A DNA stretch of 64,000 nt from Nitrospina sp. LS_NOB (GCA_001542995.1 LFLA01000003.1:266195-330194); one strand, 5' to 3'; shown: positions 7,744-57,218, counted from the first letter of the stretch. Made by a program: numbers and translations. The notes: generated by a model from the letters alone, not told the origin.

Positions 7744-8041
7744 CACCATCATTTTGGGCAATTTTGCGCCAAAAATGAGGTTGCAGGATGGGGCTGGAAA
7801 ACCCATGCAAAATAGCAGGTTACGGGTTTTTGAGGGAATTTCAGGCCTCGCTCCGCTGGAGGGTTGGAGGCACATCCGGTGTTGTCACCGGGGCTGAAAA
7901 ATTTGAGGTTTTTTTTGGGGAAAATTATTTTGGATTCAACTCAATTTAAAGAAGTGAGATTTATATATAAAAATTAGGTACCTTTTATAGTTTTGTATTA
8001 CTAGCTACGGATCCTGATCAGATCCAAAAGGAGGTTAAACC

Positions 8042-10015
8042 ATGTCGGGGAAAAACAAACTTAGCATAAAGGCGTTTTCATTGGGACTGCTATTGGCCAT
8101 GGCCATGTACTTTGTTCCAGGCATGACCAGCGATGCGATTGCCAAGGAAGTGTCTGCAGAGCAGGTTTTTGCTGAAGAGGCGTTCGCCAAAGAAGTTCAG
8201 GCGGAAGAGGCCCTTGAAGGCGAAGGCGAGGCAGAAGTTGAGTGGAGCCAGGACGTATTCTATAAGGACTGGGAAGGTAACCCGCTGAAAGGTCCTGTAA
8301 GTGGTTTTCCTGCTCCGGAACTGGGTCCATCGGACTATAACAATTATGAGTTCGCTCCCAGCCGCATGCTTTTATGGGTTGCCAATCAGCAGCATCTTTA
8401 TTTTGGTAGCTTTGTTCTGGCGGTTCCGATTTTTTGTATGCTCATCGAGTTTATCGGAATTCGAACCAAGGAAGAAGATCCGGTTATGTCGGCCAAGTAT
8501 GATCGGCTGGCGCATGACCTGATGAAGGTCAGCTTGACCGCTTATTCCTGGACAGCAATCCTCGGTGGTATCCTTCTTTTTACATTCATCACATTATTTC
8601 CGGGCTTCTTCAAGTATATGGCAGGCATTTTCCGTCCGGTTATGCATGTGTATGCACTGATGTTCCTGGCTGAGTCCGGCATTCTCTATGTCTACTACTA
8701 CGGCTGGGACAGAATGAGCGAAGACAAATTCCTGAAATGGATTCACTGTAGCCTTGCGGTTCTTCTCAACCTCGTCGGTACGGTTCTGATGTACCTGGCC
8801 AATTCCTGGGCGACCTTTATGCAGGCTCCCGGCGGAATTGACTCTGAAGGCCGTTTCCTGGGAAATATCTGGCACGTTATCCATTCCACTCTCTGGAACC
8901 CGGTCGGTGTTCACCGGATTCTCGGAAATATCGTGTTCGGGGGTGGAATCGTAGGCGCTTACGCTGCATACCATTACCTCACTGCTAAAAATGAGGAGGA
9001 GAAGGCGCATTACGACTGGGTATGTTATGTCGCCATGTTTATCTGTATCTTTGGCTTGATCCCGCTTCCTTTCGCGGGTTACTGGTTGATGAAGGAAGTG
9101 TATGCATTCCGTCAGCAGATGGGTATCACCCTGATGGGCGGCATCATGGCCTGGTTGTTCATCATTCAGGCGGTAATGATCGGGCTCCTGTTCTTCGCGG
9201 CTAATTCCTATTTGCATAATGGAATGGCTAGGGTCAAGGGGTCGCATCGTTATATGAAATATTGTAAATATATGATTCTTCTCTTGATCTTATGTTTCAC
9301 CATGTGGATGACTCCGCATACCATCGTTATGACTCCGGCGGAGTTGAAGGCGATGGGTGGCGCGCAGCATCCCATTATAGGCCATTTTGGGGTCATGTCG
9401 GCCAAGAACACAGCGGTGAACCTGATGATCACCACTACGATTCTCTGCTTTTTGTTGTACCAGAGAGCCAATAAGAAGATTAACGTGCCTTGGGCCACGG
9501 TGGGCAACTGCTGGATCGCGGCTATTTTTGTCGGCGCGGCTGCTAACATCATCTTCCTGGGCATTTATGGTTATTTCCTCCCTGCTAACCAGCGGGTTGG
9601 GCTCTCTGTACCTCAGGTAACCACTACGCTGACGACCCTTTTCGCGGGCACGGCAATCAATATCTCCATGTTTAAGGATTCTGAATCTTATGGGGATATT
9701 CAATGGGGTAGCCAGTCCAAGGTAGGAACTTACGCTATTTTCCTTCTGGCGATTTCTTTCACCTGGTTGATGGGTCTCATGGGTTACATCCGTTCTGCCG
9801 TTCGCTTGTTCTGGCACGTGACGGAGGTGGTTCGTGATAACTCTGTTGACGCTTATACGCTCACGATTGGTGAAGCGGGTAAGATGCTTACCTTCAACAC
9901 TCTTTTTGTGTGGACACAGTTTGTGGTCGTGTTCTGGGTAGGTAGTTTGACCGGTAAATCAGTCGAAGCAAAAGCTCCGGAGGGTGTTCCGGTACCGGCT
10001 CAACAACAGCAATAA
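8042..10015 (+). CDS. Cytochrome bd-like oxidase subunit (CydA-related), nitrite-oxidiser type
   Basis: A 657-residue membrane protein with an N-terminal hydrophobic signal or anchor, an acidic Ala/Glu-rich linker to about residue 65, then some 12-14 predicted helices. NQQHLYFGSFVLAVPIFC, the helices after it and NPVGVHRILGNIVFGG, each with histidines in a membrane setting, recall subunit I of cytochrome bd oxidases. The protein is much longer, and no CydB-like partner follows. Instead three c-type cytochrome genes come next in the same operon. Similar bd-like oxidases with c-type partners are known to me from nitrite-oxidising Nitrospira and Nitrospina. I infer a role in quinol or cytochrome c oxidation linked to nitrite respiration. 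Haem or copper ligands were not verified. Confidence 0.7.
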   Translation: MSGKNKLSIKAFSLGLLLAMAMYFVPGMTSDAIAKEVSAEQVFAEEAFAKEVQAEEALEGEGEAEVEWSQDVFYKDWEGNPLKGPVSGFPAPELGPSDYNNYEFAPSRMLLWVANQQHLYFGSFVLAVPIFCMLIEFIGIRTKEEDPVMSAKYDRLAHDLMKVSLTAYSWTAILGGILLFTFITLFPGFFKYMAGIFRPVMHVYALMFLAESGILYVYYYGWDRMSEDKFLKWIHCSLAVLLNLVGTVLMYLANSWATFMQAPGGIDSEGRFLGNIWHVIHSTLWNPVGVHRILGNIVFGGGIVGAYAAYHYLTAKNEEEKAHYDWVCYVAMFICIFGLIPLPFAGYWLMKEVYAFRQQMGITLMGGIMAWLFIIQAVMIGLLFFAANSYLHNGMARVKGSHRYMKYCKYMILLLILCFTMWMTPHTIVMTPAELKAMGGAQHPIIGHFGVMSAKNTAVNLMITTTILCFLLYQRANKKINVPWATVGNCWIAAIFVGAAANIIFLGIYGYFLPANQRVGLSVPQVTTTLTTLFAGTAINISMFKDSESYGDIQWGSQSKVGTYAIFLLAISFTWLMGLMGYIRSAVRLFWHVTEVVRDNSVDAYTLTIGEAGKMLTFNTLFVWTQFVVVFWVGSLTGKSVEAKAPEGVPVPAQQQQ

Positions 10016-10031
10016 CTGCTAACAATTTGGC

Positions 10032-10054
10032 GGGGCTCCCTCTTGGGGAGCCCC
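10032..10054 (+). promoter_or_regulatory. Intercistronic GC hairpin without T-tract
   Basis: GGGGCTCCC, a TCTT loop and GGGAGCCCC form a nine-pair stem between the bd-like gene and the next cytochrome gene. No T-run follows, so it is more likely an mRNA 3'-end stabiliser that sets differential expression in the operon than a terminator. Confidence 0.6.
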
Positions 10055-10094
10055 TAACCAATTAATCAGAGGGTTCAGGAGAGAGAGGAGAACG

Positions 10095-11462
10095 ATGTTA
10101 CCAGAGCAACATGACATATTATTTTCGTTTATTGCTATCGCATTTGCCCTGTTCGGGATTTATGTTTTCGCAAATGTGATTCTAAATTGCAGGGAGAGAG
10201 AAGGAGCAAACATCACGAAGTGGGGCGGAATATTTGGCGCCTTTGCCATCGCGTGTTTTTCGATGACGGTCCACATGTTTAGCCTGGTTCAAGCTGATCA
10301 GTTGGCGTTTTTCTTCTCAACGTATCTTTGGCTTGTGGTTATTTTGTTGATCACTTGGGGAGTGTTCCTCAAGAGCAATTCAATGGAAGCTCAATCTCCT
10401 CCGATTATTAGAGGGTTTTTCTTCTGGACCACGGTTTCTCTTTTGCTGGCAGGCTACACCAACTGGTTACCGCAACAGCGCAGTGACCCACCACCTAGAG
10501 AAGCGGCGGTCGTGGGTGACCTGACCATGGAAGAATTTGCAGAAATGGGACGAGTTATTATTTTTGGTGCCAAGCAGGTGGCCGGTCAGAAATCAATCGG
10601 TAAAGGCCAGTGTCCTCTGTGTCACACCTTTGATCCGGGTGACCATATGGGTCGATGTCCGAACCTGTTTGGGGTTGAGAAAAGAAGTCATGACCGGGTG
10701 AAGGAGAACCGGTATGCGACCAGTCCTATAGCCGTTGGCGAAGTAGAGCCTTCTTCGGGTATTGTGAAGGGCAAGTGGGACGAAGTGCCGGAAGAGTACA
10801 GAAGACAGCATGGTCCTGACGAATTTACCGGCGAAGATTATATCCGTGAATCTGTCATGTGTCCGACCTGTTACGTGGTGAAAGACTTCGGTAATGATGG
10901 CGATACAAGAAGCCCGATGCCGGTTATCATCAAGCCGCCGATCAGTCTGAGTCGGACTGAAGTGAACGCGGTCATCGCTTACCTGCAATCCAAAGACACG
11001 CCGGGCGAGTTTGCAACGGTGACTGTTCCATTACCTCAGGATGATGCGGGTAACACCGGTGGAGCAGTGGTTGAAGATACGTCTAGTGATGAGGATGCTC
11101 CGGTATTCGTCACCGGCAATGAAGATATGCAGACCATGATCAATACATTAGGTTGTCCGCTTTGTCACACCATCCCTGGTATTGAGGGTGCGGTGGGTGA
11201 GTTGGGGCCGAAGCTTCATGAGAAGATCAACGCTCCGCAGCGCATCAAGGATCCCAACTACAAGGGTAAAGCGACCAATACCAGGGAATATGTCAGGGAG
11301 TCTATTTTGGACCCTGGCGCCTATGTGGTCTTCAACGAAGCAGAGGGAGAGTCATTCCCGGATGGTTTAATGCCTACAACCTTTTCAGAGATGCTTTCAG
11401 TTAGGGCTCTCGACAAGCTTGTGGATTTTATTAGTCAGACCGAAGCTCCGGCTGGCAGTTAA
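10095..11462 (+). CDS. Membrane-anchored dihaem cytochrome c
   Basis: A 455-residue protein with about four N-terminal transmembrane helices (near 8-28, 43-65, 70-92 and 107-125) and a large soluble part. The soluble part holds two CPLCHT haem-c sites near residues 174 and 360, each followed by a possible Met ligand (SPMPV, GLMPTT). An additional CPTC lacks the His and is not a haem site. The repeated layout (CxxCH, YIRES/YVRES, then MP) suggests an internal duplication of the cytochrome domain. It probably faces the periplasm and passes electrons to or from the bd-like subunit encoded 79 bases upstream. Haem-c attachment is certain from motifs; partners are inferred from the operon. A GGAGAGAGAGGAG ribosome site precedes the ATG. 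Confidence 0.8.
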   Translation: MLPEQHDILFSFIAIAFALFGIYVFANVILNCREREGANITKWGGIFGAFAIACFSMTVHMFSLVQADQLAFFFSTYLWLVVILLITWGVFLKSNSMEAQSPPIIRGFFFWTTVSLLLAGYTNWLPQQRSDPPPREAAVVGDLTMEEFAEMGRVIIFGAKQVAGQKSIGKGQCPLCHTFDPGDHMGRCPNLFGVEKRSHDRVKENRYATSPIAVGEVEPSSGIVKGKWDEVPEEYRRQHGPDEFTGEDYIRESVMCPTCYVVKDFGNDGDTRSPMPVIIKPPISLSRTEVNAVIAYLQSKDTPGEFATVTVPLPQDDAGNTGGAVVEDTSSDEDAPVFVTGNEDMQTMINTLGCPLCHTIPGIEGAVGELGPKLHEKINAPQRIKDPNYKGKATNTREYVRESILDPGAYVVFNEAEGESFPDGLMPTTFSEMLSVRALDKLVDFISQTEAPAGS

Positions 11463-11474
11463 TAGGAGACAGCA

Positions 11475-12458
11475 ATGAACAAAGCATTAGTCAGTTTTTT
11501 AGTTTTTGTTGTCGGCCTGGCGGTGTTTCATAACGCCATATTTCCTATCTTCACACCTAAGGAGGTCGGCTGGATTTTAAATAGGTACGTCTACTTTTTA
11601 TTGTTCGTAGCCTATTTGCTCGTTACACACTTTACCCTCAGACTCAAGCCGCCGATTGCCATGATGGCCTTGTTTGTGTGGGGTCTGGGTTTTTACTTTT
11701 ATAAATGGGTTTTGTATCCGCCAATTCCGTGGACCTTGTTCATCACCTATATGGTGATGTGGTCGATCGGTACTTTCCTGTACGTCAGTCAGGACCCGGA
11801 AACGTTCCGGGATTTCAGGAGGCCAATCGTTAAAACGATTGTTGGGGAATACAAGTTTGCCCAGTGGGTCATGTTGATTGGTATGCCGATTCTCGTAGGA
11901 TTTGCAACCTATAATTCGATTTACCCGTCGTATGAGGAGCCAGTGGAATTGCGGACGGTTCACCCCGCACCTCCTGCCACCACGAAAGTGCATGGCAAGA
12001 CCTATCCTCTGGAGTCTACCAACAATCCTTTCCGCATTGATGAACAGGACAACTATAAGGACAGTTTCCCGTTCCTGGATGCGGAGAAGGAGGAGTACAT
12101 GAAGTATGTGACGGAAGGCGGCACGATCTTCTTCCAGAACTGCCATTATTGTCATGGTGACCAGTTGAACGGACTGGGCATGTTCTCGCATGTGTTTAAC
12201 CCGACCCCGGCTAACTTTATCGATCCGGGTACTATCGCCATGCTGCAGGAATCATTCCTGTTCTGGCGAGTAGCAAAAGGCGGCCCCGGTCTGCCGAATG
12301 AGTCGACCCCGTGGTCTTCAGCAATGCCTCCCTGGGAGGAGCATTTGAACACGGAAGAAATCTGGAAGGTTATCCTGTTTGAGTACTGGTACACAGGGTG
12401 GCATCCAAGAACTTTCGGCACAGAAGGTTCCACCGCTGGCAGTGGGGGTGGAGAATAA
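11475..12458 (+). CDS. Membrane-anchored monohaem cytochrome c
   Basis: A 327-residue protein with about five hydrophobic helices in the first 150 residues, then a periplasmic cytochrome c domain. That domain has one CHYCHG haem site near residue 223 and a SAMPPW methionine-ligand motif near 275. The sequence ending EEIWKVILFEYWYTGW is typical of the last helix of class I cytochromes. It begins 12 bases after the preceding dihaem cytochrome gene, so the two are translated together. By context it is an electron carrier subunit of the bd-like respiratory complex. Function beyond electron transfer is unknown. Confidence 0.78.
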   Translation: MNKALVSFLVFVVGLAVFHNAIFPIFTPKEVGWILNRYVYFLLFVAYLLVTHFTLRLKPPIAMMALFVWGLGFYFYKWVLYPPIPWTLFITYMVMWSIGTFLYVSQDPETFRDFRRPIVKTIVGEYKFAQWVMLIGMPILVGFATYNSIYPSYEEPVELRTVHPAPPATTKVHGKTYPLESTNNPFRIDEQDNYKDSFPFLDAEKEEYMKYVTEGGTIFFQNCHYCHGDQLNGLGMFSHVFNPTPANFIDPGTIAMLQESFLFWRVAKGGPGLPNESTPWSSAMPPWEEHLNTEEIWKVILFEYWYTGWHPRTFGTEGSTAGSGGGE

Positions 12459-12494
12459 CCTAATAGGAACTTTCGGTTACTAAAACCTAAACAT

Positions 12495-14225
12495 ATGGGA
12501 ATGACAATGACTAAGAACAATAACTATAAACGCCTGATCTTTTCCTTTCTGGCTGTGGCGTTGATCGCGGTACCGGGAGTGGCGCTTGCCCAAACGGTAC
12601 CGGATGCGGTCAAGAAGGACATGCTGGAAACGGGGAAAAAGGTCTATTTTAAAAGATGCGTCTGGTGCCACGGGATTGAAGGGGGCGGAGATGGCCCTTC
12701 TGCAGACCGCCTGTTCACCCGGCCCAGAAACTTCATCCAGGGGACTTTCAAAATCCGCGTTACGGATTCTGGTGAACTCCCTATGGAAGTAGATTTGATC
12801 ACAACCGTTAAAAATGGACTCCAGGGTTCGGCAATGCCGGCCTGGGGTGAGTTTTTGTCGGAAAATGAGATCATTTCCGTTGTTCAGTTTGTTAAAACCC
12901 TGGTGCAGGATCGGGATTTTGACGACGTCGAAGACGAAGAAGTCACCATTCAGGATTTTGGCAAAAACCCGTGGGGAACAACAGGTCCCTATCACTTGGG
13001 CATACCCCAGGCTGATATCGACACAGGTAAAGAAATTTTCCTGAAGAATAAATGTTTTGAGTGTCACGGCGGCGAAGGCCGGGGTGATGGTAACCCGACG
13101 ATGAAAGACGACTGGGGTTTCCCGATCGTTGCGGCAGACTGGCAGCAATGCTGGAACTTCCGTGGAGCTCGCCGGGAACCTTTCGATCCCTTCCATATTG
13201 TCCGCACGATTTCTACCGGATTGAACGGTACTCCGATGCCGAGCTTCGTGGAACAGATCACGGTTGAGGATCGCTGGAAGATTGCGGCGTTTGTTAACTC
13301 ACTCTGCCCGAGAAAGAAAATCGATCGGTTGACCAATAAGCCGATTCCAGACTTTCTCATTCAGTCTATTTATTCGGAAGGTCCCGTTTCTCCAAAGATT
13401 GATGACCCAAGTTGGCAGTCTCCGGATACGGACGATCGGATTGTTGCTTTTCCTGAAGAGATCAAAGACAACCCGAAGAGGCATCATATCGCCATGGCGG
13501 GCCAGATCACTCGGGGTAAACGAAACTTCGATCCTAAAACCGACAATCTCTGGGTGACCACCCGTTGGAGTGCTGAAGAGCAGGCGGTTTACTATCTGGT
13601 TGAATACCACCTGCGGTTTTTGTCGCAAGACCCGGAGTACCCGGATTCAGTAGCCATTCAATGGCCGGCAAAACTTCAGGATCTGTTCGGTGCGGAAAAA
13701 CCCTATTTCATCATGGGTGACTCCAAGAAACCGGTAGATATCTGGAAGGCCAACTTTCTGGCTAAAGACTACAGCGCGACCAATGCCCCGAAGCCTGAGG
13801 GTTATCAGTTGGACGTGAGTGTAGAAGAAATGGTAGGTTTTGGATTTGATGCTCTACAAGCCAAAGAATCTGAAGCTAAAGTCCAGGTTGTGGACTCCAT
13901 TTACCATCAGGGTCGTGTCAAGATTATGTTCAGAAGGGACTTAAAAACAGATGGAGAATTTGATGTTCAGATTCCTACTGAAACTTTCATTCCTGTGGCT
14001 TTCATGCAATGGGCAGGACGGGATAAAGAGAAGGATGAGAATATGGCCATCTCTACCTGGTACTACACCATTCTGAAACCGGCATTGCCTGATTCTCTGT
14101 ACTACATGCCTCCGATCATGGCAGCCATTTTTGTCTGCTTCCAGGGTTGGATGGTATGGATGACCAAACGTACACGTAAAATGTATGACGAAGGGAAGGT
14201 CAAGCGTGATGAGATTCCTAAATAG
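12495..14225 (+). CDS. Exported dihaem cytochrome c with ethylbenzene-dehydrogenase-like haem domain
   Basis: A 576-residue protein with a signal peptide (hydrophobic core about 13-30, cut near ALAQT). Two cytochrome c domains carry CVWCHG near 53 and CFECHG near 180, each with a downstream methionine (GSAMPAW, GTPMPSF). From about 300 to 540 there is a beta-rich domain resembling the haem-b-binding gamma subunit of ethylbenzene dehydrogenase and related NXR/DMSO-reductase partners (DNLWVTTRWSAEEQAVYYLV, VAIQWPAKL). It ends with one membrane helix and a KRTRK cytoplasmic tail. It closes the operon and could link the bd-like complex to a periplasmic oxidoreductase such as nitrite oxidoreductase, which is an inference. 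Confidence 0.76.
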   Translation: MGMTMTKNNNYKRLIFSFLAVALIAVPGVALAQTVPDAVKKDMLETGKKVYFKRCVWCHGIEGGGDGPSADRLFTRPRNFIQGTFKIRVTDSGELPMEVDLITTVKNGLQGSAMPAWGEFLSENEIISVVQFVKTLVQDRDFDDVEDEEVTIQDFGKNPWGTTGPYHLGIPQADIDTGKEIFLKNKCFECHGGEGRGDGNPTMKDDWGFPIVAADWQQCWNFRGARREPFDPFHIVRTISTGLNGTPMPSFVEQITVEDRWKIAAFVNSLCPRKKIDRLTNKPIPDFLIQSIYSEGPVSPKIDDPSWQSPDTDDRIVAFPEEIKDNPKRHHIAMAGQITRGKRNFDPKTDNLWVTTRWSAEEQAVYYLVEYHLRFLSQDPEYPDSVAIQWPAKLQDLFGAEKPYFIMGDSKKPVDIWKANFLAKDYSATNAPKPEGYQLDVSVEEMVGFGFDALQAKESEAKVQVVDSIYHQGRVKIMFRRDLKTDGEFDVQIPTETFIPVAFMQWAGRDKEKDENMAISTWYYTILKPALPDSLYYMPPIMAAIFVCFQGWMVWMTKRTRKMYDEGKVKRDEIPK

Positions 14226-14244
14226 TCATCATTAGCTCTATAAG

Positions 14245-14277
14245 AAAGCCCGCCGATTTATCGGCGGGCTTTTTTTT
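14245..14277 (+). terminator. Rho-independent terminator of the respiratory operon
   Basis: An 11-pair stem AAGCCCGCCGA / TCGGCGGGCTT with a TTTA loop is followed by a run of T. It begins 20 bases after the last cytochrome stop codon. Confidence 0.95.
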
Positions 14278-17550: not shown

Positions 17551-18837
17551 TTATACCAGATTGTATCCGGTTTCTCCATGCTGGGTGGTATCCAAACCCA
17601 TTTCCTCATCTTCATCGTTAACCCTGAAGCCGATCGTTTTATCAATAATTATAACCAGAACATAGGTGACGACGAACGAGTACAATCCGGCGGCAAAAAT
17701 GCCCACCAACTGGACCCAGACTTGATGGAAGTTGCCAGCCAGCAGACCTGTTCCACCTACGGTGACGAATAGTCCTGTAGCGAGAGCGCCCCAGGCACCC
17801 CCCACGGCATGGATTCCAAAAACATCGAGCGAATCATCGTACCCGACTTTGAGCTTCACCACAACGGCGCAGAAGCAGATCAGTCCGGCGAGAAAACCGA
17901 TCACCATTGCCCAAAGAGGTTCGACAAATCCTGCGGCGGGAGTGATGGCGACTAGTCCGGCTACGATTCCGGAAGCTGCTCCGAGAGCGCTGGCTTTTCC
18001 CCCTTTGATGAACTCGGCGAGAAGCCAACCGAGGAGTCCGGCTCCCGTTGCAATTTGGGTGTTAGTGAATGCCAGTACGGCTATTTCGTCTGCCGCCAGC
18101 GCGCTGCCGGCATTAAAACCGAACCATCCGAACCATAAAAGTCCTGCCCCCAGAAGAGTGAGAGGCAGGCTGTGAGGGATCATGAGTTTTCCCGGGAAGC
18201 CTCGGCGCTTTTTAAGAACTAGGGCAGCGGCCAGCGCGGCGGTGCCTGAAGCGATATGAACCACTGTGCCACCCGCAAAATCCAGAGCTCCGAGGTCGCC
18301 CAACCACCCGCCACCCCAGACCCAATGGCAAATAGGATCATAAACTATGGTGGACCAAATGAAAATGAAGGCGACATAAGCCTTAAAGTCCACCCGCTCG
18401 GCCATTCCTCCGCTGATGAGTGCGGCGGTGATGATGGCGAACATCAGCTGAAACATACTGAATAAATATTCCGGGATGGTGCCGGAAAGGTCCTTATAAT
18501 CAATGCCTATAAAGAGAGCTTTGCTCAGGTCTCCGACAAAATGTCCGATATCGTTACCAAAAGCTAAAGAATAGCCAAACAGCACCCATTGGATCGTGAT
18601 GACTCCGAGTGGTATAAAACTGTGCATCAATGTGCTGAGAACATTCTTGCGCCGCACCATGCCACCATAAAATAGTGCCAGGCCAGGGAGCATGAGCATC
18701 ACTAACGCCGAAGAAATCAGTATCCAGGCGGTGTCCGGGTAGCTGATTTGAGGGGTCTCCTCAGCTGCCACGATCACAGGAAAGAGCATGAATAAAAAAG
18801 TCAGGAAGACTTTGTTCGCTAGAATTCTGATTTTCAT
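17551..18837 (-). CDS. amtB: Ammonium transporter
   Basis: A 428-residue Amt/MEP/Rh transporter with a cleavable signal peptide (FLFMLFPVIVAAEE) and 11 helices. Family signatures are visible: LFYGGMVRRKNVLSTLMHSF, DFAGGTVVHIASGTAALAAAL, LLWFGWFGFNAGSAL and DDSLDVFGIHAVGGAWGALATG, which supplies the second pore histidine. It imports ammonium, here probably for assimilation. The cytoplasmic tail ending LDTTQHGETGYNLV is the usual Amt C-terminus that contacts PII proteins, but no glnK gene is adjacent. A TTTAGGAGATCGGGTTTT ribosome site precedes the ATG, and a sigma-54-like element lies upstream. Confidence 0.96.
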   Translation of the reverse strand: MKIRILANKVFLTFLFMLFPVIVAAEETPQISYPDTAWILISSALVMLMLPGLALFYGGMVRRKNVLSTLMHSFIPLGVITIQWVLFGYSLAFGNDIGHFVGDLSKALFIGIDYKDLSGTIPEYLFSMFQLMFAIITAALISGGMAERVDFKAYVAFIFIWSTIVYDPICHWVWGGGWLGDLGALDFAGGTVVHIASGTAALAAALVLKKRRGFPGKLMIPHSLPLTLLGAGLLWFGWFGFNAGSALAADEIAVLAFTNTQIATGAGLLGWLLAEFIKGGKASALGAASGIVAGLVAITPAAGFVEPLWAMVIGFLAGLICFCAVVVKLKVGYDDSLDVFGIHAVGGAWGALATGLFVTVGGTGLLAGNFHQVWVQLVGIFAAGLYSFVVTYVLVIIIDKTIGFRVNDEDEEMGLDTTQHGETGYNLV

Positions 18838-32552: not shown

Positions 32553-34589
32553 CTAGATGGCAATATGCTTAAAATGAGTGATGAAACTCCCGCCCCGCGC
32601 TATTTTGTATTCCAGACTCTGAGATGATCCATCAGAAAACTTTTTGTCATGCGTGTCCTCGACCCATTCGAAAACATTACCAAAAAGGTCACTGGTTCCT
32701 CCAGAATATTCATTCTCGGGAAAATGGTCGACCGGCAGGGTGTCCAGAATTCCGGTTTCCTCAATATTACAGAATTCGACAATCCGGCCCTCATCCCAGA
32801 AAAACTCATCCGATGAAGTCTTTCCGAAGTTGCTGGCGACATATTCCCATTCTTTTTCGCTTGGCAAGCGAATGTTCTGTCCGGTTAACTCGCTTTTCCA
32901 TTTGCAATAGCCCTGGGCATCATTCCAGGTGACTTGGGTGACGGGGTGATTATGCTTTGTGTACAGAGAGTCGGGTTGACCATCTGGGCAAAGCCAGAAA
33001 GCGTCTTTAACCGGCCCCAGACTGGGATTGGAAAAGGAAGAGCGGGTGCCATATTCACCGGCACCTTGCAGAGCCAGGCTTCCACTTTGATAAAGGAGGG
33101 TTTTGGTTTGTTCGGTAAATTTTTGGTTTTCTTTTTCGAATGCTTCTTCCAGTTCCTGGGTTTTTTCCTGGATTTCCTGCTCCACCTTGGGGCGGTCCTC
33201 TTCCATTTCTTTTAACAGTTTTTTCTTTCTCTTTAAAAGGTTGGCCTGAGTGCTCGCGGCGGTTTTGATCTGGTCAACCGCGAACTTTCCCGCTTCAATG
33301 CCGCTCATTTCCTTCAGGAGGCTGGCCTTTTCAACGTCGTTTTCTTTTTCCTGCTTGTTGAGAATTTTCTGTTTTTGTGTGAGTTCTTTTTCCAGCTTTT
33401 CAATTTCTGCCAGGCGTTTTTTCGTAGCTTCATCGGCTTTTCTTTGTGCCTCAAGGGCCAATCCTTGCTCGCGGATTCTCAGCCTTTCGTTTTCACGGCC
33501 CAGGCGTTCTTCATCTTCATCAAACTCTTCCAACCGTCGAATATAATATTCCGACCTTCTCTGATATTCCCGCTCCAGTTCCTCCTTCCGCTTTCCAAAC
33601 TCTTCTTTTAGCCTGAGCTTGAAGGTTTTCTTTTCGCTTTCCAACGATTTTGAGAGCTTAAGCAGTTGCTGATTTTTTTTTGCCTGTTGTTGGGACTCTT
33701 TTTTGATCTGTAACTGTTTTGCTTTGGTAGATTTAAAGTCCTTCTGCTTGCGTTGGTGGAGAGCCTGTTCTCCGGCAGACATTTTTTCTATCAAATCCGT
33801 CATCTCATCGAACTTTGCCCTGAATATCTGGTCTCGTCTTGAAAAGTCTGTGTCCAACCTTGAGCGTGATGTTTCATGTTCCTCTAAAAGACGATTTCTT
33901 TCGCTCCTGAGAGTTTCCAGTTCTTCCCGGGTTTCTCCCAACTCCTTGTGAAGCCGGGCGGTTTCTTTTACGGTTTGCTCTTTGGATTGCTCATTATGTT
34001 TTTGCTCTTCGTCCCGCAGTTTTTGCAGGCGAATGCGGAAATTCGCATTTTCCTCTTCCAGGCGGACCTTGTTTTCCTCCAGCTCTTTTTCCTTTGCAGT
34101 GATCTCCCGCATTTGCTTGCTGGCCTGTTCTTCCTTTTCCTTCAGACGCTCCAGTTGTTGCTCGAATTCCAGTTTCAGTTCGTCTGGAAGATTGAAGGTA
34201 ATTTCAGATTCCTTGAATTTTATTCTCTCTGGGGCGGGCGCAGGTTTGGGGTTCTCCAATATTTGGATGAATGTGTAGTCCGGTCCTACGATCAGTTCTG
34301 CCGGATTTCCCTGACGTGAAATAATGTCGAAGAGCTCACGGTTTAATTTTTCCCGAAGTGAATTCAGCCATGTCAGATCTTGTTCCTGGTTTTCTGGCGG
34401 GAAACCGGATTTCTCAAACGCCTTTAATATTTCGAGGGGATCTATGGCGGCTCTGCCCTCGGGGGTTTGTCCTGGAGGGTAAAAAGACTGGACCGCTTGA
34501 AATAAGGCTACGGCTTCCGGATCACCGGCTTGGGAATATTGATCTGCCAGTAATTGGATATCTTTCAGGCTGAAGTTTTTCCCGGCCAT
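32553..34589 (-). CDS. Coiled-coil protein with C-terminal FGE-sulfatase domain, premature amber
   Basis: A 678-residue protein. Residues 1-120 are globular with no family recognised. About 125-490 is a long, highly charged coiled coil rich in Glu, Lys and Gln (QLERLKEKEEQASKQMREIT). From about 500 is a formylglycine-generating-enzyme-like (SUMF1, C-type-lectin fold) domain: HPVTQVTWNDAQGYCKWKSE, LPSEKEWEYVA, LFGNVFEWVED and ARGGSF. TAG at 32555-32553 cuts the domain. The same frame continues for 23 codons, including RTYCTSFLGFRTACDDD, the conserved FGE end, and stops at TGA 32483-32481. The truncated product probably misfolds in its last strands. No signal peptide is seen. Role unknown; such proteins often bind ligands or partners and are not enzymes. 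Confidence 0.75.
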   Translation of the reverse strand: MAGKNFSLKDIQLLADQYSQAGDPEAVALFQAVQSFYPPGQTPEGRAAIDPLEILKAFEKSGFPPENQEQDLTWLNSLREKLNRELFDIISRQGNPAELIVGPDYTFIQILENPKPAPAPERIKFKESEITFNLPDELKLEFEQQLERLKEKEEQASKQMREITAKEKELEENKVRLEEENANFRIRLQKLRDEEQKHNEQSKEQTVKETARLHKELGETREELETLRSERNRLLEEHETSRSRLDTDFSRRDQIFRAKFDEMTDLIEKMSAGEQALHQRKQKDFKSTKAKQLQIKKESQQQAKKNQQLLKLSKSLESEKKTFKLRLKEEFGKRKEELEREYQRRSEYYIRRLEEFDEDEERLGRENERLRIREQGLALEAQRKADEATKKRLAEIEKLEKELTQKQKILNKQEKENDVEKASLLKEMSGIEAGKFAVDQIKTAASTQANLLKRKKKLLKEMEEDRPKVEQEIQEKTQELEEAFEKENQKFTEQTKTLLYQSGSLALQGAGEYGTRSSFSNPSLGPVKDAFWLCPDGQPDSLYTKHNHPVTQVTWNDAQGYCKWKSELTGQNIRLPSEKEWEYVASNFGKTSSDEFFWDEGRIVEFCNIEETGILDTLPVDHFPENEYSGGTSDLFGNVFEWVEDTHDKKFSDGSSQSLEYKIARGGSFITHFKHIAI

Positions 34590-40135: not shown

Positions 40136-42532
40136 ATGAGTGAGTCTAAAGGACTGGTTCCCGGTTTTGACGGGGAAGAAGTTCCTGTTGCGCGGGAACG
40201 ACCGGAAGAATCCATTGAATGGGTCGTAGAGATCTACAGGAAGCACCAGTTGAAAAGGGTTTCCCATTGGCTGGATGAGACACTGGGTAAGGGGAAAAGA
40301 AGTAAAACCCTTATTCCGTTGGTCTTGCTCGATGTCAACCCGATCATGCACCGGCAAAGCCTGCTTGAACAGGTGTTCCCCGCTCCAAGAATCATTAATG
40401 AAGATTTGCTGGAGGTCAACCGGCTGAAGATCATGCTGGATGCCGGATCGGGAATGGGCAAAACCACTTTCCTGAAACGTTATCTGGAAACGCTTCTTCA
40501 GAGATCGGCGCATAAGGTTTATTCTCTCCCTGTTTATTTCCGTTTTGGCAACTTGCCGGAAGGGGGAAGGTTCGACCTGTTCCGTGAAGCGGTGAACCGT
40601 GAAATTATCGATGTCGTTCTGCTTGAACAGGAAGATAACCCGGATTTGATTTTGGATGAAGGGCTCCTTGAAAATACGGTTAACTCCATTTTTAACTACA
40701 GCAAGTGCCAGTTCCTGCTAGATGGATTTGACCAGCTCCATCCTCAGGACCGGTTCCAGTTTTTTATGGAATCGTTTCTGGAAGATAACGCCTTTCGCAG
40801 TAATTTTGTTTTGCTTGCCAGCCGTGGGTTCAACTTTGGCTCTTTATCCACCGACGCGGTGGTTAAACGTGGAGAAGGTGCTGCGTTTCAAATGGCTTTC
40901 CAGAAAATTGACCCGAAGGAAAGTTCTATCTATCTGGGAGAGGCCTCTAAAAATAAAAAGATCAAAGATATGGCTCTTTTTACTCCAGAGCTTTTAGAAG
41001 TCCCGCTTTTACTGCGGATGATTCGTGAGCTTTCTGAAAGCGAACTCTTGGACGGGTTGAAGAATAGGATGGAAATTTATTCAGCCTGGTTTCGTCTTAA
41101 GCTGAAATCGGCCAACCCTTCTGCGGATGAGAGTTGGGTGGAAAACTGCCTCGACCAACTTGCCGAAATTTCTTACAGTTTGATGACCCAGGATCGGCAA
41201 CAACGTTTTCTTGATGTGGAGCAGGGTTACGAAAAATCAATCCTTGAAGGAAAGGAAATGCTTTTGCGGGAGGGAAGTGTTGCTCCCTGGTGGAAAGACA
41301 TCTTACAGCAGACGAGTAGGTGTTGGGAATATCGCCACCCGTCGTTTCAGGAATATTTTGCAAGCCGGTATATACAGAATAACGATAGCTGGAAGGAAAT
41401 GGTTCGGGAGAATTGTGGCAATGAGAAATGGCACGAGGCCTTTAAGATTCTGGCTGGAGGTGTTTCTGGCAAAGAGTTGTTCGATATTTTGATTGCAGAG
41501 GGGGCGGTGATGCTGGCGGGAAACTCGCTGGCGGAGGTAGGTGACCTGCCGAAGGAGCAAGATCTGCTGATAAGGCAGTTATTGAAATACCAGTGCAAGG
41601 AAACCTTTCCACAATTTTCCCAGTGCCGACAGGTGCGTGTCGAAGAAGTCATTCAGTGCAACGAAACCGGATACATGGATCTCCTGCTAAGCCGTTTATT
41701 AAAACGCCAGCATCGTGACAGTCGAATTTTATTCAGTGTGTTCGAACTGATTCTGGCAAGACATGACCTGAACTTTCATCGGCTTCTGGATACGTTTGAT
41801 TTGGGACCTCTGAAGAATCTCGAGGAGTTTAAGGCGTTTTTTACTGAAGTGACTGACCCGGAACTGGTGAACAAGGCAACACTCAAAAAATTTGGCGAAA
41901 GGGTCACCATCCCTGAAGGAAAATTTATTTATCAGGAAGAGACTGATGAAGAGGATAAGGTTCTCCTGAAAGAATTTTCGATCATGAAATTCCCGGTCAC
42001 CAATGTTTTATACCAACAGTTCGACCCGCAACACCAAAACCGGTTTCCCCGGTATTCTTTTGATGGCGATCAGCCTGTTATCGGTATCAATTATTATGAG
42101 GCGATTATTTTTGCTCTTTGGATGGGGTTGAGGCTGCCCACAGAACAGGAGTGGGAAAAGGCGGCCCGAGGAACAGATGGCCGGATTTATCCCTGGGGCG
42201 AGGCGATGGGCTATGAAAAAGGTTTTGCTAATACTTGTGACTTCATGGCTTGCAAGACCAATCCGGTCATGGATCTGGAGCAGGGCATGTCTCCTTACGG
42301 GTGTTTCGATATGGCAGGCAACGTCTGGGAATGGTGCATGCAGAAAAATGCTTCCAAGCATACCACTCAAAGGATTGTGCGGGGTGGATCGTGGATGAAT
42401 TATCTGGTGCATGCCAAATGTGTCTTCAGGAACTCCTTTGATCCTTCTGAGAGGCATTTGGCTGTCGGGCTGCGGTGCGTCGAAGCTCCTCAGTTTACCG
42501 AGGTTGAGAGTGATGATCTGGATGACTTCTAA
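40136..42532 (+). CDS. NACHT-like STAND NTPase fused to an FGE-sulfatase domain
   Basis: A 798-residue protein. Residues 1-95 form a helical N-terminus. A P-loop [16 protein letters not shown] (about 101-116), Walker [10 protein letters not shown] (193-201) and ASRGFNFGS-type sensor place it among NACHT/STAND NTPases. Then comes a helical region that includes [20 protein letters not shown] (about 390-415), the winged-helix-like FQEYFAA block typical of NACHT proteins. From about 590 to 785 is an FGE-sulfatase fold: [17 protein letters not shown] and [15 protein letters not shown] NTPases often act in signalling or phage defence, and FGE-like domains there may sense ligands. Cytoplasmic, no signal peptide. 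The specific function is unknown; a solitary defence gene is plausible. Confidence 0.82.
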
Positions 42533-51236: not shown

Positions 51237-52723
51237 TGCCTGGTTAGACCACAATGATTGATCTGGTATACTTGTCACGCTTATTTGTTGGACCCTCTGG
51301 CGTTCCGGTTAGACCACAATGATTGATCTGGTATACTAATTATTGGCCGGGCGATTATAGAAACTGAGTTCCGGTTAGACCACAATGATTGATCTGGTAT
51401 ACTTAAAATCTGGAAATGTGTAAAGCACAATTCGTTCCGGTTAGACCACAATGATTGATCTGGTATACTTACTGAAGAACGAGAGCGCGAAGAACATAAG
51501 TTCCGGTTAGACCACAATGATTGATCTGGTATACTAAAAATATGGAAGGACAATAGCAAGACTCAGTTCCGGTTAGACCACAATGATTGATCTGGTATAC
51601 TCAGTATTGCGCCTGCCACAAAGCTTGTGGCGTTCCGGTTAGACCACAATGATTGATCTGGTATACTCAACTACATGCTAATGAAATAAACTACTTTGTT
51701 CCGGTTAGACCACAATGATTGATCTGGTATACTCGTCCGTAAATGTAGACGATACCCAGGCCGGTTCCGGTTAGACCACAATGATTGATCTGGTATACTA
51801 AATTCAATCGACCGGGTACGCTATATACAGTTCCGGTTAGACCACAATGATTGATCTGGTATACTTGACTATCTGATCCCCCGCCGCATCATCATGTTCC
51901 GGTTAGACCACAATGATTGATCTGGTATACTGTCCCGGACGCAACAGATACGGGCGTATCAGTTCCGGTTAGACCACAATGATTGATCTGGTATACTCCA
52001 AAATCCCCAGACCCGCTGCCGCCATCCGTTCCGGTTAGACCACAATGATTGATCTGGTATACTATTTTTATGAAAATAAATTTGACAAGCTCAGTTCCGG
52101 TTAGACCACAATGATTGATCTGGTATACTTCAGCTTAAAAAACAGGGCTTATATAGCCTGTTCCGGTTAGACCACAATGATTGATCTGGTATACTTAAAA
52201 ATCATAACTCATTGAAATATATGTCGTTCCGGTTAGACCACAATGATTGATCTGGTATACTTAAAAATCATAACTCATTGAAATATATGTCGTTCCGGTT
52301 AGACCACAATGATTGATCTGGTATACTTCTGGCAGAGATTTATATAGCGTTGGATCAGTTCCGGTTAGACCACAATGATTGATCTGGTATACTTGAAATG
52401 ATCCTAACAATCATGGAGACACTGTTCCGGTTAGACCACAATGATTGATCTGGTATACTTGATCCAATAAATGAACGGCCATTACATCCGTTCCGGTTAG
52501 ACCACAATGATTGATCTGGTATACTTAATCGCCCGGCCAACATCAACTGCTCTTTGTTCCGGTTAGACCACAATGATTGATCTGGTATACTATAGTAACC
52601 CGTTGGCTCTGCCCCGTTCCTGTTCCGGTTAGACCACAATGATTGATCTGGTATACTATTGAAAGCATTTATATTGCTGAACGAATAGTTCCGGTTAGAC
52701 CACAATGATTGATCTGGTATACT
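51237..52723 (+). CRISPR. Type II-C CRISPR array, 23 repeats and 22 spacers
   Basis: A 36-base repeat beginning GTTCCGGTTAGACC and ending GATCTGGTATACT is perfect 22 times, starting at 51302 and then every 66 bases to 52688. A degenerate copy at 51237-51272 differs in four of its first five bases. Spacers are 30 bases, except 29 for the first. Two neighbouring spacers (52196-52225 and 52262-52291) are identical. The repeat 3' end TGGTATACT is an extended -10 promoter. Anti-repeat matching to the tracrRNA fixes crRNA orientation as plus. The degenerate repeat marks the old end, so new spacers probably enter near 52723, beside cas2. Confidence 0.99.
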
Positions 52724-52730
52724 TAGATCG

Positions 52731-52768
52731 CAAATAAGTGCCTCTTTTTAGAGGCCTTATTTGTTTTT
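52731..52768 (+). terminator. Plus-strand terminator at the cas-proximal array end
   Basis: CAAATAAG/CTTATTTG and GCCTC/GAGGC build a 13-pair stem around TTTTTA (one mismatch), followed by TTTTT on plus. The T-run is only on plus, so it should end array transcripts and not cas transcripts. The leader region 52724-52795 otherwise holds no gene. Confidence 0.85.
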
Positions 52769-52795
52769 AGCTTAAAAAATTTCATCATTTTCTTC

Positions 52796-53128
52796 TCAAA
52801 ATAAAGTCAACTGGCCCGGATTTTCCTGTTTTTTCTGCCTTTTTTTCCCTCTGAATGTTTTCATGTTTTCGTATTGCTTATCCGTGAATGCAAGAATATG
52901 CACTTTCCCATATTCCGGCAGGCTCTTTTCGATCCTTTTGATATAGTTCTCCACCATTTCTTTTCCTGAGCAGAACCTTTGATAAACAGAGTACTGTGCC
53001 ATCTCAAAACCCAGATCCAATAGAAAGCACCTGAACTTGGAAGCCGCCTTCCGGGTTTTTTTTGTAGTGACCGGCAAATCAAACAGTACTTGTAACCACA
53101 TAAATCTGTACCCCGATAACGCTTTCAT
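52796..53128 (-). CDS. cas2: CRISPR-associated endonuclease Cas2
   Basis: A 110-residue Cas2 that bridges two Cas1 dimers in the spacer integration complex. The ferredoxin fold opens FMWLQVLFDLPVTTKKTRKA, where the Asp of the FDLP motif is the usual metal-site residue, then FRCFLLDLGFEMAQYSVYQR and SLPEYGKVHILAFTDKQYEN. The basic tail RGKKRQKKQENPGQLTLF is common in type II Cas2. Its start overlaps the cas1 stop by four bases. It is the last cas gene before the array; no csn2 or cas4 follows, which points to subtype II-C. Confidence 0.95.
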   Translation of the reverse strand: MKALSGYRFMWLQVLFDLPVTTKKTRKAASKFRCFLLDLGFEMAQYSVYQRFCSGKEMVENYIKRIEKSLPEYGKVHILAFTDKQYENMKTFRGKKRQKKQENPGQLTLF

Positions 53129-54039
53129 AATTCTTCGATGGTTGTTGTTAATGGAATAACAGAGTCAGGCAAATCCAGTCCGGGTTTTCGCTCTGTAAAA
53201 CTGCTGACCAGAGATTGAGCCAGTTTGAGCAAACAATTGGAAACGGGACTACGACCACGGGATGTTTCAAGGTCCATTTTCAATATCCCCGCCAGCCTTT
53301 TTTTGATTTCGGGAACCATTTCTATGCTTTCCTCATCGGCAAGCTGTCTCACAGTCCAATCAACCAGCGGTCGAAAAGGCTCCATTAAATCGTCAGCCAG
53401 GCAAAAGGAATTGGATTGATTGTGATGATGAATGCCAAGAGATGGGTGCAATCCGCTTCCTGCCAAGGCGCGTGCTGTTGCGGAGCGCAATACGGAATAA
53501 CCGTAGTTGAGTAATGAGTTGATGCCTTCAATTCGAGGGTCTCTGCGAAATTCCTTCCCCATCAGGGTGGGCCAATAGCGTCGAGCCGCCTGGGCTTCGC
53601 AGTTTTGGGGATCGCCTGAACCCACCTGCTTAGTCAGGGATATCAAGTCCGCATCAGGCAGGCCAAAAAAGTTCAAAACCTCTGCCTGACATCCGATTTT
53701 GGCCTGCACCAGATTCTGCCACAATCTTTTTTTTAAAGGGACGGTTGCCCCAATCTGGAGTTGAAGCCGCTGGGTGTGTAGATGGTGTGGCGCGGTCGGC
53801 CAAACCATTCCTGCAGGTTGAAAATTAGGACCGCAAAAAACAATCATGGCATTTTGCTCAAGCAGGGCATGTATCAAATTAGTGGATAGTGAATTTCCCT
53901 GGCTGGTGAGCATCAAGACCTCGATATCTGCGAGAGGAACCCGACCCCGCTCTTCTTTGCCTTTATTAACCACCATGAACCCTCGATGCGTGGAAAGGTA
54001 TTGCCCGCGATCCGCTATTTCTATAATACGTCTGTTCAT
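53125..54039 (-). CDS. cas1: CRISPR-associated integrase Cas1 (type II)
   Basis: A 304-residue integrase that inserts new spacers. The metal-binding residues are Glu148 in CEAQAARRYW, His205 in LGIHHHNQSN and Glu220 in LADDLMEPFRPLVDW, all present. The N-terminal beta domain starts RRIIEIADRGQYLSTHRGFM, typical of type II Cas1. Its ATG overlaps the stop of the Cas9 C-terminal frame (ATGA), and its end overlaps cas2, so all cas genes form one coupled operon. It appears intact and active. Confidence 0.96.
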   Translation of the reverse strand: MNRRIIEIADRGQYLSTHRGFMVVNKGKEERGRVPLADIEVLMLTSQGNSLSTNLIHALLEQNAMIVFCGPNFQPAGMVWPTAPHHLHTQRLQLQIGATVPLKKRLWQNLVQAKIGCQAEVLNFFGLPDADLISLTKQVGSGDPQNCEAQAARRYWPTLMGKEFRRDPRIEGINSLLNYGYSVLRSATARALAGSGLHPSLGIHHHNQSNSFCLADDLMEPFRPLVDWTVRQLADEESIEMVPEIKKRLAGILKMDLETSRGRSPVSNCLLKLAQSLVSSFTERKPGLDLPDSVIPLTTTIEEL

Positions 54040-54326
54040 AGGATGGTTCCTGGGTCTTTGATGCGCCCGAGTGCGTCGACATGAATTAATCTGGCCTCAC
54101 ATTCTTTGAGCCTGGAAAAACTAAGAAAAATATATTCAAGTTTTCTCTCTTTATAGCGTTTAGCCAAATTGCCTCCTTCAAAATGTTCCACCAGCCAAAT
54201 AGTTTTATTTTCCGGGCTCAGGCTGACCACCCGGGCTGTTTTCACTTTTCCTTTGTGCCGCAGGCGCAACATGTCGCCTTTATGAATTTTAAGCACCAGT
54301 TTCGCGGCAGGGTGTGGACGTTTCAT
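54036..54326 (-). CDS. Cas9 C-terminal (PAM-interacting) segment as a separate frame
   Basis: A 96-residue frame reading MKRPHPAAKLVLKIHKGDML, ARVVSLSPENKTIWLVEHFE, GGNLAKRYKERKLEYIFLSF and ending VDALGRIKDPGTIL. This is the distal C-terminal domain of type II-C Cas9 (KGD, AGNLxxR, LGRxxDPG), which reads the PAM. Its ATG overlaps the stop of the main cas9 frame (ATGA), with no ribosome site of its own. The Met corresponds to an internal Met of full-length Cas9: in this frame upstream codons give FEANKNDPIMKRPH, the expected linker. So it was split off by a frameshift at a T6 run (54352-54357). It may be made by coupling, by slippage as a fusion, or not at all. Confidence 0.88.
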   Translation of the reverse strand: MKRPHPAAKLVLKIHKGDMLRLRHKGKVKTARVVSLSPENKTIWLVEHFEGGNLAKRYKERKLEYIFLSFSRLKECEARLIHVDALGRIKDPGTIL

Positions 54327-57163
54327 GATCGGATCATTTTTATTGGCCTCGAAAAAATTGATCCCGACACCCTCCCGACACCCTGATGAAGCGCTCCATC
54401 GGGATTTTGCCAGAACTCCAAATGATGAACGGGTCCTGGAGCAAGCCCTTTTTTATGATTGCGCTTTTGGCTTTGAGGTTTGGTTGCTGTACTTTGATGT
54501 ATGATTTCTATAATGGGGTGTTCTTTTTTGAGCACCCTTACACGTAATACACCAAGGTTTTTAGCAAAATCGGGAAGTGCCAATTTCAGCTCTTTGTCAT
54601 TCTCGAATGTATTGGCAAAGTTCATGAACTTTTCTCGCAGGTCTGGATCACGGATAGCACCAATTTCATTCCTCGAAAGATCGCTTGAAGGTTTTCTGCG
54701 GACTACGTTATAGCCGTTTTCTTTTTCCCAGCTGCTGGGATGCTGAATGATTCCGTAGGCGGTGTCTTCGTGCAAGGGGCCTTGAATGCCGTGGTCGGGT
54801 TTATGGGAAACAACAATGTGGTTAATTTTTTCTTCCGCTTCCTTGTGGAACCCAGCCCAAACCTCCGGGGCCTTGAGTCGGGGTTTTACCGGGTCTGAAA
54901 GTTCTTCGGACGGTTCCAACAGACCGGCACCGGTTAATTGCGAGACACGTTGCAACAAACCTTGATCGGTCAGGGCTGTTACCAGAGCATCGATAGCATG
55001 GTGCCGGTGATCGTTGCGATCTTTTATCCCCCTTTCACCTAAAATATCATTCAAACCAAGTTTATGTCGAAGCATGGCGGTTAAAACTCCCGGAATGACC
55101 CGCACCGTTCGACAAATATGGGACAGGTATTCCGTGGCAACTGTTGAAAGGTAACGGGTATCATTAAGATGGCGTGCCAGAAACTGGTTTTCATCATCGA
55201 AACGTTCCATAGCCTCGGGAAGAAACCGCATGAACTTGCGTTTGGGCAATTGGTGTGCCCGGTCGAGAATGTCTCCATAATCATAGCCGGTATCCCCCGC
55301 CCCAAAAGCTTTAAATGGGCCGCGATCGTGTTTGAGATGATTGGCTTCTCTTGTCGCAAGTGTTTTATTGTTCTGGGAGTCGTCCAGGGTTTTGGATAAC
55401 GGTAAAATATGCTCAATTTCTATTTGAGGGCTGAACAGGTTGACAGGTGTTATTTTTTCACCCGAAAAAGGACACAGCCGGTCGTTAGGGTCTGAACTCA
55501 ACTCTTCCCACAGTTTGTATTTGAGCCGGTTAGGTCCGTTGTTTTCCAGGCACAATATTTTCAGTTCGCCCTCTATGCGCTCGTTATTTTTCTGGTTTTT
55601 TCTTTGTTCTTTTTCCAGATCGTCTTTGCGTTTTTTGCTTAGTTTGAGGTTGCGGGCCAGTTCGACCACGATTTCTTGCGGGTGACCATGCGTTGTGACA
55701 ATGTCGTTCACCACCTTCTGCAACTGGTTGAGTGCCACATGCACGGTGGGGTTGCCGATCTTGCCGAATTTTTTTTCAGGAGATGCTTCATCAGGGTCGC
55801 CAAAGGCCACGGCTTTGGGCAGCATTTTTCCGTAATAATCCAATTTCTCCACCAGTTCATCAGGGCGATTGTTGCTGTGGTGATAGCCCAGTTTCTTCAC
55901 CGCTTCATCATAACGAAGGCCGTCATCCCGCATACAGCAAACCAGTTTTTGCAGAACGGCAATGCCGAACCGACAATAGCCCTTCGGAAAATCTTCAGGC
56001 AGTAGGCTGGCAAGGTTGCGGGCCTGCTCTTCACTGACCGACCAGGTATTCATGGCTTTTTGAATGACGGCTTTTTCATCTTCTATATCGAGGAGTTCCT
56101 CGACGATTTGGTCGCGGATTTTATCTGAGAAGTCGAACCATTTTTCACCAAAATATTTTTTGTCGGAAAGAAGTTTTGCCGTGACGTTACCCTTGAGGTC
56201 TTTTCGTTTTTCGTCTTCAAGGTTAAACTGAACCCCTTCGGGTAATTCCAGGGTCGTGCGTACTTTTCCAAACTTGACTGTCTTTTGTTTGTGAAGTAAA
56301 TTCCATAATTTTTTTCTTTGTTCGGCAGTAAGAAAATGTTTCCCCCCCTTCTCATCGATCCAGGCGAGGTTGGTGATATCCTGGGCGATGCGGAATTTCT
56401 GAAAACTTGGTAAGGCGGCGCGGGCGCGGTATTCATTTGGCTCAAGCTGGCATCGTCCGGGTTCGGGTGTTTTTAAATCCCGTTGGTGGAAGATAATTGT
56501 TTCTAAGGCTTGCCACTCATCTCCAGTGAGTTTTTGGTGTCGAAGTTGACAACTTCTGATTTGGGTGAACTCATCCCGGTACAGGGCACGGGTGGGGTAG
56601 AGTTTTTCATCAATACGGGCTCTCACCCTTTGTTTGTTTTTGTCTCGGAGCCAGAGATATTCACCTAAAGTTCTGGCAGGGGATGCATCAAGAGCTTCTT
56701 TAAGCCCATCTATATCGGGTTTGATTTTTTGTCCCTCTTCTTTGGTGGTGGTTTTACGATTGCTCAGAAAACCACGGCGTTGATTGAGGTGATACAGGGC
56801 GCGGCCCAGCTCATGAGGTGCAAGGGAGTTTTCAATGGCTTTGGCCCGAAGTTCATAGGGGTTCAATACTTCAAGCTTCTTGCGTTCATATTTATTTTTG
56901 GGCATGAGACCAAGCTCAACCAGCTTTTGCATGAGAGCCCCTTTCCGTCCGAGAAAACGGTCTCTACGCCTGCGAGCACCCCGATTCAGCCTGCGGGCTT
57001 CGGCGAGTGAAGAACCGCTTTTTGGGTCTCGACCGTCCGAAAAAATTCGGGCTCCAGCCAAGAGTATTTTTTCAGGAATACTTTTTTCGTTGAGTTTTAG
57101 CAGGCACCAGCCCAGAGAGTTTGTGCCTAAATCTATGCCCAGCCTGTAATTGATTCTATCCAC
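54323..57163 (-). CDS. cas9: CRISPR effector nuclease Cas9, type II-C, lacking the PAM-interacting end
   Basis: A 946-residue frame from GTG 57163 (after TTTTTTGGGGGAAACCT). All catalytic blocks are intact: RuvC-I Asp11 in LGIDLGTNSLGWCLL; an Arg-rich bridge helix ARRLNRGARRRRDRFLGRKG; RuvC-II Glu501 in EIVVELARNLKL; HNH His585 in QIEIEHILPLSKTLDDS with N-K following; RuvC-III His722/Asp725 in DHRHHAIDALV. It stops after SIFSRPIKMIRS. The real C-terminus continues in another frame, for about 1042 residues in total, the usual II-C length. Without the PAM domain it should not bind targets unless the two parts associate or slippage fuses them. An upstream open extension to 57238 is not used. Confidence 0.95.
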   Translation of the reverse strand: MDRINYRLGIDLGTNSLGWCLLKLNEKSIPEKILLAGARIFSDGRDPKSGSSLAEARRLNRGARRRRDRFLGRKGALMQKLVELGLMPKNKYERKKLEVLNPYELRAKAIENSLAPHELGRALYHLNQRRGFLSNRKTTTKEEGQKIKPDIDGLKEALDASPARTLGEYLWLRDKNKQRVRARIDEKLYPTRALYRDEFTQIRSCQLRHQKLTGDEWQALETIIFHQRDLKTPEPGRCQLEPNEYRARAALPSFQKFRIAQDITNLAWIDEKGGKHFLTAEQRKKLWNLLHKQKTVKFGKVRTTLELPEGVQFNLEDEKRKDLKGNVTAKLLSDKKYFGEKWFDFSDKIRDQIVEELLDIEDEKAVIQKAMNTWSVSEEQARNLASLLPEDFPKGYCRFGIAVLQKLVCCMRDDGLRYDEAVKKLGYHHSNNRPDELVEKLDYYGKMLPKAVAFGDPDEASPEKKFGKIGNPTVHVALNQLQKVVNDIVTTHGHPQEIVVELARNLKLSKKRKDDLEKEQRKNQKNNERIEGELKILCLENNGPNRLKYKLWEELSSDPNDRLCPFSGEKITPVNLFSPQIEIEHILPLSKTLDDSQNNKTLATREANHLKHDRGPFKAFGAGDTGYDYGDILDRAHQLPKRKFMRFLPEAMERFDDENQFLARHLNDTRYLSTVATEYLSHICRTVRVIPGVLTAMLRHKLGLNDILGERGIKDRNDHRHHAIDALVTALTDQGLLQRVSQLTGAGLLEPSEELSDPVKPRLKAPEVWAGFHKEAEEKINHIVVSHKPDHGIQGPLHEDTAYGIIQHPSSWEKENGYNVVRRKPSSDLSRNEIGAIRDPDLREKFMNFANTFENDKELKLALPDFAKNLGVLRVRVLKKEHPIIEIIHQSTATKPQSQKRNHKKGLAPGPVHHLEFWQNPDGALHQGVGRVSGSIFSRPIKMIRS

Positions 57164-57213: not shown

Positions 57214-57218
57214 AGAAA

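Follow-up and report, generated by a model that had tools for sequence, protein, structure and literature searches.

A CydB-less bd-like operon with three c-type cytochromes in Nitrospina sp. LS_NOB as a candidate cytochrome c-fed oxygen reductase

The Nitrospinaceae are main marine nitrite oxidisers, and the issue raised by the locus described here is the route by which electrons from nitrite reach O2. Four genes, all on the plus strand, occupy positions 8042-14225 of the window (the whole stretch of DNA analysed, 64 kb in length) and encode a CydA-like subunit and three c-type cytochromes. The operon is a published OR-N type bd-like oxidase and its kind is already known: for the Nitrospina version, PMC3578206 and PMC8026999 speak of a bd-like oxidase whose function is unsettled and PMC10839748 of an OR-N type CydAA', and a hybrid bd-like complex was also reported in PMC6606698. 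These sources bear out the original prediction of a hybrid bd-like/cytochrome c complex, of a kind with unsettled biochemistry in nitrite oxidisers. The features of the operon were as follows.

8029-8034, plus strand: strong Shine-Dalgarno sequence AGGAGG, 5' of the CydA-like gene, read directly from the sequence.
8042-10015, plus strand: CydA-like OR-N subunit of 657 aa, without the quinol (Q) loop residues (PF01654, Foldseek, 58% identity to Nitrospira bd-like_3).
8393-8395, plus strand: H118, invariant; corresponds to H19, a haem ligand in E. coli CydA.
8744-8746, plus strand: H235, invariant throughout OR-N; corresponds to H126 of E. coli.
8912-8914, plus strand: H291, invariant; corresponds to H186, a ligand of haem b558 in E. 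coli.
9317-9370, plus strand: H426-H443 loop at the canonical Q-loop position; window-type, bd-like_1 and bd-like_4 proteins keep the two His without exception.
9395-9397, plus strand: M452, invariant; probably corresponds to M393, a ligand of haem b558 in E. coli.
9815-9817, plus strand: H592, invariant throughout OR-N, part of the RLFWH sequence that takes the place of GRQPWA.
10095-11462, plus strand: dihaem cytochrome c of 455 aa with three N-terminal transmembrane segments, CPLCH at 173 and 354.
11475-12458, plus strand: monohaem cytochrome c of 327 aa with about five transmembrane segments, CHYCH at 223.
12495-14225, plus strand: alt_NxrC, 576 aa, a dihaem cytochrome c fused to an NxrC/EbdC-like domain.
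14242-14275, plus strand: intrinsic terminator of 15 pairs, closing the operon.

The genes were separated by gaps of 79, 12 and 36 nt. Genes two to four contained two, one and two CXXCH motifs respectively, in agreement with the three c-type cytochromes predicted downstream of the CydA-like gene; among all ORFs of at least 100 aa in the window, only these three contained CXXCH. The four-gene arrangement was found at tens of independent loci and is therefore not due to chance.

Elsewhere in the window, an ammonium transporter gene (PF00909) was observed at 17551-18837, a protein combining a NACHT domain with a formylglycine-generating-enzyme-like domain at 40136-42532, and a second formylglycine-generating-enzyme-like protein at 32553-34589. 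A Type II CRISPR-Cas locus at 51242-57238 comprised 23 repeats (GGTTAGACCACAATGATTGATCTGGTATACT) with a period of 66 nt, an ORF of 304 aa at 53125-54039 and a Cas9 of 971 aa at 54323-57238 on the minus strand. A search of the window for RNA families and tRNA returned none.

The prediction that the first gene encodes a CydA-like subunit of 657 residues and roughly 13 helices was upheld. Residues 107-355 matched PF01654 (E = 6.9e-21), and the AlphaFold model showed a hydrophobic stretch at the N-terminus followed by about 13 membrane helices. Model confidence was moderate (pLDDT 73 for this subunit and 68 for its OR-N2 sister, introduced below). When both models were compared with the PDB using Foldseek, they matched subunit I of cytochrome bd and no haem-copper oxidase, the ten best matches of the CydA-like model all being CydA chains.

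Residue conservation was judged over 79 relatives, with equivalences expressed in E. coli CydA numbering. Positions H19, E107, H186 and R448 corresponded to H118, E211, H291 and R588, which were invariant in 78-79 of the 79 relatives; the haem-ligand histidines, whose complete loss the original prediction had named as decisive against itself, were thus retained in the form of H118 and H291. Profile alignment confirmed the register of H19, E99, E107 and H126, while H291 was paired with H186 by MAFFT and hhalign placed H186 against an adjacent gap. The pairing of M452 with M393 is uncertain, since its register differed between alignments. The residues K252 and E257, which belong to the quinol site, were not conserved among the relatives, and the canonical active-site glutamates were gone, E99 being replaced by Tyr and E445 by Leu or Val. 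In the window-type protein the Q-loop was replaced by extra helices and by the H426/H443 loop, which, from counting helices, would face the periplasm. CydB (PF02322), predicted to be missing, was found neither in the operon nor in the whole host genome. With CydB, K252/E257 and E445 all missing, the operon subunit would not be classed as a canonical cytochrome bd (qOR).

The second gene product was examined for a third haem at CPTCY and this was rejected, because CXXCH occurred at that position in none of 73 rows. In alt_NxrC the haem motifs were CVWCH at 55 and CFECH at 187, and matches were obtained to PF13442 (6.3e-21) and 6h5l_B (5e-39); its identity is backed by synteny with Nitrospira. 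The last protein had been predicted to be exported and dihaem, and both properties stood, the N-terminus bearing a signal-like segment; it is not merely exported, as a transmembrane anchor is also present at the C-terminus (538-556). The C-terminal domain, predicted to be ethylbenzene-dehydrogenase-like, matched TIGR03477, the family of DMSO-reductase type II gamma subunits, with E = 4.8e-13 and 48.9 bits, below the cut-off of 169.9 bits, and the Pfam EB_dh match was also below its cut-off; the domain is probably related to haem b gamma subunits. The Met that aligns with the axial haem b Met of EbDH gamma/NxrC was seen in only 14 of 60 alt_NxrC relatives, the remainder having mostly Y, H, F or N. 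The window protein does have the aligned Met (M407), but haem b as a family-wide feature of alt_NxrC was not supported.

The host genome (2.65 Mb, 98.8% complete) contained nxrA, nxrB and nxrC in a row on contig C10, separate from the operon on C5; NxrA, of 1155 aa, matched PDB 7b04_B with E = 0. Because of this nxrABC row, the host is, judged by gene content, a nitrite oxidiser of the Nitrospinaceae, and the closest relatives of its CydA-like protein belonged to Nitrospina and Nitrospinaceae MAGs (93-95% identical). COX1 (PF00115) was not found in the host genome, where there were only two CydA-like proteins: the operon subunit and its OR-N2/NIDE0901-like paralogue on contig C26 (L003:7664-9724). 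These two are the only candidate O2 reductases that could be found in the host gene complement. The same pattern extended across the family. Neither COX1 above cut-off nor CydB was found in 43 of 46 Nitrospinaceae genomes (17 of the 20 of good quality, and including G026, a single contig). COX1 exceeded the cut-off in three of the 46, one of these being a contig-edge fragment, and CydB was present in one, which also had COX1. In several Nitrospinaceae genomes, COX1 gave weak and partial matches below the cut-off to ORFs about 310 aa long (for example G028:C12:8687-9067 and G003:C1:816956-817327).

Genes for OR-N1 and OR-N2 co-occurred in most Nitrospinaceae. In a phylogenetic tree, window-type proteins grouped with bd-like_3, bd-like_4 and Troglogloeales sequences in one clade with 100% SH-aLRT, apart from OR-N2; the OR-N1 label rests on PMC10839748, the tree having been built without the Murali reference sequences. 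Directly downstream of the OR-N2 gene, L003:6377-7636 encodes a dihaem cytochrome c whose N-terminus bears membrane segments and which is likely to be a partner of OR-N2. In Nitrospinaceae, OR-N2 also carried a 113-residue insert with four predicted helices (residues 137-249), in which H170, H171 and H194 were invariant in 19 of 19 sequences. OR-N2 proteins of Nitrospira and of other groups did not have the insert, which matched nothing in Pfam; it is possibly an extra metal or haem site.

Beyond the Nitrospinaceae, 28 carriers of the operon were considered. These are draft MAGs, for which single absences prove little, while the pattern is consistent. An NxrA-like enzyme was absent from 27 of the 28, the exception being G063 (39-42% identity). 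In nine of nine carriers of the Troglogloeales/Manganitrophaceae type, there was no COX1, NxrA or OR-N2 orthologue, and canonical CydA was absent also, the best PF01654 matches scoring about 84 bits versus 465-521 for canonical proteins. All 19 of the remaining carriers had COX1. Eight of the 28 had a single CydA-like match, and most other outside carriers likewise had no OR-N2 orthologue (best identity 30-36% versus 43-53% for true ones). On gene content, the operon is separable both from NXR and from its OR-N2 partner. Nitrite as the defining electron source was rejected for most carriers outside the family, so that the nitrite link drawn in the original prediction held for the host, which has NxrABC, and not for these 27 genomes. 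Taken as a whole, the interpretation originally given was partly supported.

These observations bear on function. We put at about even chances that the operon encodes a cytochrome c-fed, CydB-less O2 reductase of the bd fold in which the quinol site has been lost. Electrons from nitrite would pass from periplasmic NXR to the dihaem domains of the anchored alt_NxrC and to the two membrane cytochromes, would enter the CydA-like subunit on its periplasmic side near H291/M452 and the His loop that replaces the Q-loop, and would continue to the haem held by H118, where O2 would be reduced to water with protons drawn from the cytoplasm. The O2 chemistry may be performed by the operon subunit, by the OR-N2 sister, or by both together. 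This reading is favoured because bd fold and homology coincide with invariant haem-site residues and lost quinol residues; because the three c-type cytochromes are syntenic across Nitrospinaceae, Nitrospira and Troglogloeales; because the host and 43 of 46 family genomes were without COX1 and CydB; because nine of nine Troglogloeales carriers were without COX1, canonical CydA and OR-N2; and because the bd-like_3 cluster of Nitrospira is reported to rank within the top 40 genes by transcription when nitrite is the growth substrate (PMC6606698). It is weakened by the loss of E99 and E445, and by the report of the cluster from strictly anaerobic anammox bacteria (PMC3578206, PMC8026999). It also counts against the reading that the OR-N2 sister alone could be the oxidase. 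Since all 19 outside carriers other than Troglogloeales have haem-copper oxidases, the operon need not be an oxidase there.

The main rival is reverse electron transport, in which the proton motive force would drive electrons from high-potential cytochrome c (and so from nitrite) to quinone, leaving the OR-N2 complex as terminal oxidase. We consider this rather unlikely; it stays alive because of the anammox reports and the missing glutamates. Both PMC3578206 and PMC6606698 put it forward for the cluster, an NxrC-like subunit co-occurs, and many carriers have separate haem-copper oxidases. With K252, E257 and the Q-loop gone, however, the complex would have to bind quinone at some new site, and NXR is lacking in the 27 outside carriers noted above. 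Troglogloeales carriers, moreover, have no COX1, canonical CydA or OR-N2, so that, if they respire O2, its reduction should fall to a bd-like protein of the window type or a related one. An obligate CydAA' heterodimer, uniting the OR-N1 operon subunit and the OR-N2 protein of C26 in one oxidase, has been hypothesised (PMC10839748, PMC12342949) and would suit the co-occurrence of the two genes in Nitrospinaceae. It is made improbable by the want of an OR-N2 orthologue in all nine Troglogloeales and most other carriers and by the eight carriers with a single CydA-like match, where incomplete MAGs could hide genes; in the host, too, the two genes are found on separate contigs, each with its own cytochrome genes.

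A haem-copper site needs six haem/CuB histidines, and the His columns common to window-type, bd-like_1, bd-like_4 and OR-N2 proteins numbered only four (H118, H235, H291 and H592), the same four being the only conserved His of Nitrospira OR-N2, to which a full haem-copper site had been attributed. The literature claims a CuB site in one variant from Nitrospira and, in a form altered by two substitutions, in Nitrospinaceae as well (PMC8026999, PMC8115632). The CuB ligands that the original prediction proposed to seek by alignment were nevertheless absent, and a novel haem-copper oxidase is rejected as exceedingly improbable, given the four conserved His, a genome without PF00115 and Foldseek matches of both proteins to bd subunits rather than to any haem-copper fold. 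The complex might, lastly, anchor NXR to the membrane or offer it a docking platform, or serve in NO/O2 detoxification, rather than being an energy-conserving enzyme. The likeness of alt_NxrC to the NXR gamma subunit speaks for anchoring, which was suggested in PMC6606698, but carriers without NXR exist, and haem-site residues conserved in all relatives imply redox work; this explanation therefore seems very unlikely.

Returning to the bd-fold, cytochrome c-fed reductase, if the survey of 43 of 46 genomes holds, OR-N proteins must carry nitrite electrons to O2 in Nitrospinaceae. The question is narrowed in that a copper site is unsupported and that the operon can be separated from NXR and OR-N2. 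The nine Troglogloeales genomes, without NXR, haem-copper oxidase or OR-N2, represent natural test organisms. At somewhat less than even chances, the complex could be viewed as a copper-free cytochrome c oxidase of the bd fold that operates without CydB, quinol, OR-N2 or NXR, as a general terminal oxidase of high-potential lithotrophs and as one of only two O2 reductases in most Nitrospinaceae.

Among known systems, E. coli CydAB shares with the operon subunit the subunit I fold, H19, H186 and E107, and probably M393; the operon differs in having no CydB and no Q-loop residues, in the replacement of E99 and E445, in its extra helices, and in having cytochromes c instead of quinol. The bd-like terminal oxidase TO_1 of Ca. 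Manganitrophaceae is similar in that it has been proposed to receive electrons from the periplasm, in a lithotroph that does not use nitrite (PMC9040806). The cluster of Nitrospina gracilis (PMC3578206) comes from the same phylum and has the same gene types, with haem b ligands kept and quinol residues lost; there it adjoins NXR, whereas in the host the operon and nxrABC occupy C5 and C10. The bd-like_3/alt_nxrC_2 cluster of N. moscoviensis (PMC6606698) has four matching gene types and the operon is orthologous to it; gene order was identical in three Nitrospira-like genomes (CydA-like proteins 56-58%, cytochromes 36-48% and alt_NxrC 35-37% identical), although Nitrospira has an additional bd-like_4 copy about 5.5 kb away that the host does not. 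The OR-N CydAA' of Nitrospinota and Nitrospirales (PMC10839748) is likewise a CydA homologue that has neither CydB nor a quinol site and is adjoined by cytochrome c genes; it is conserved across Nitrospinota, and nothing essential distinguishes it from the operon of the host.
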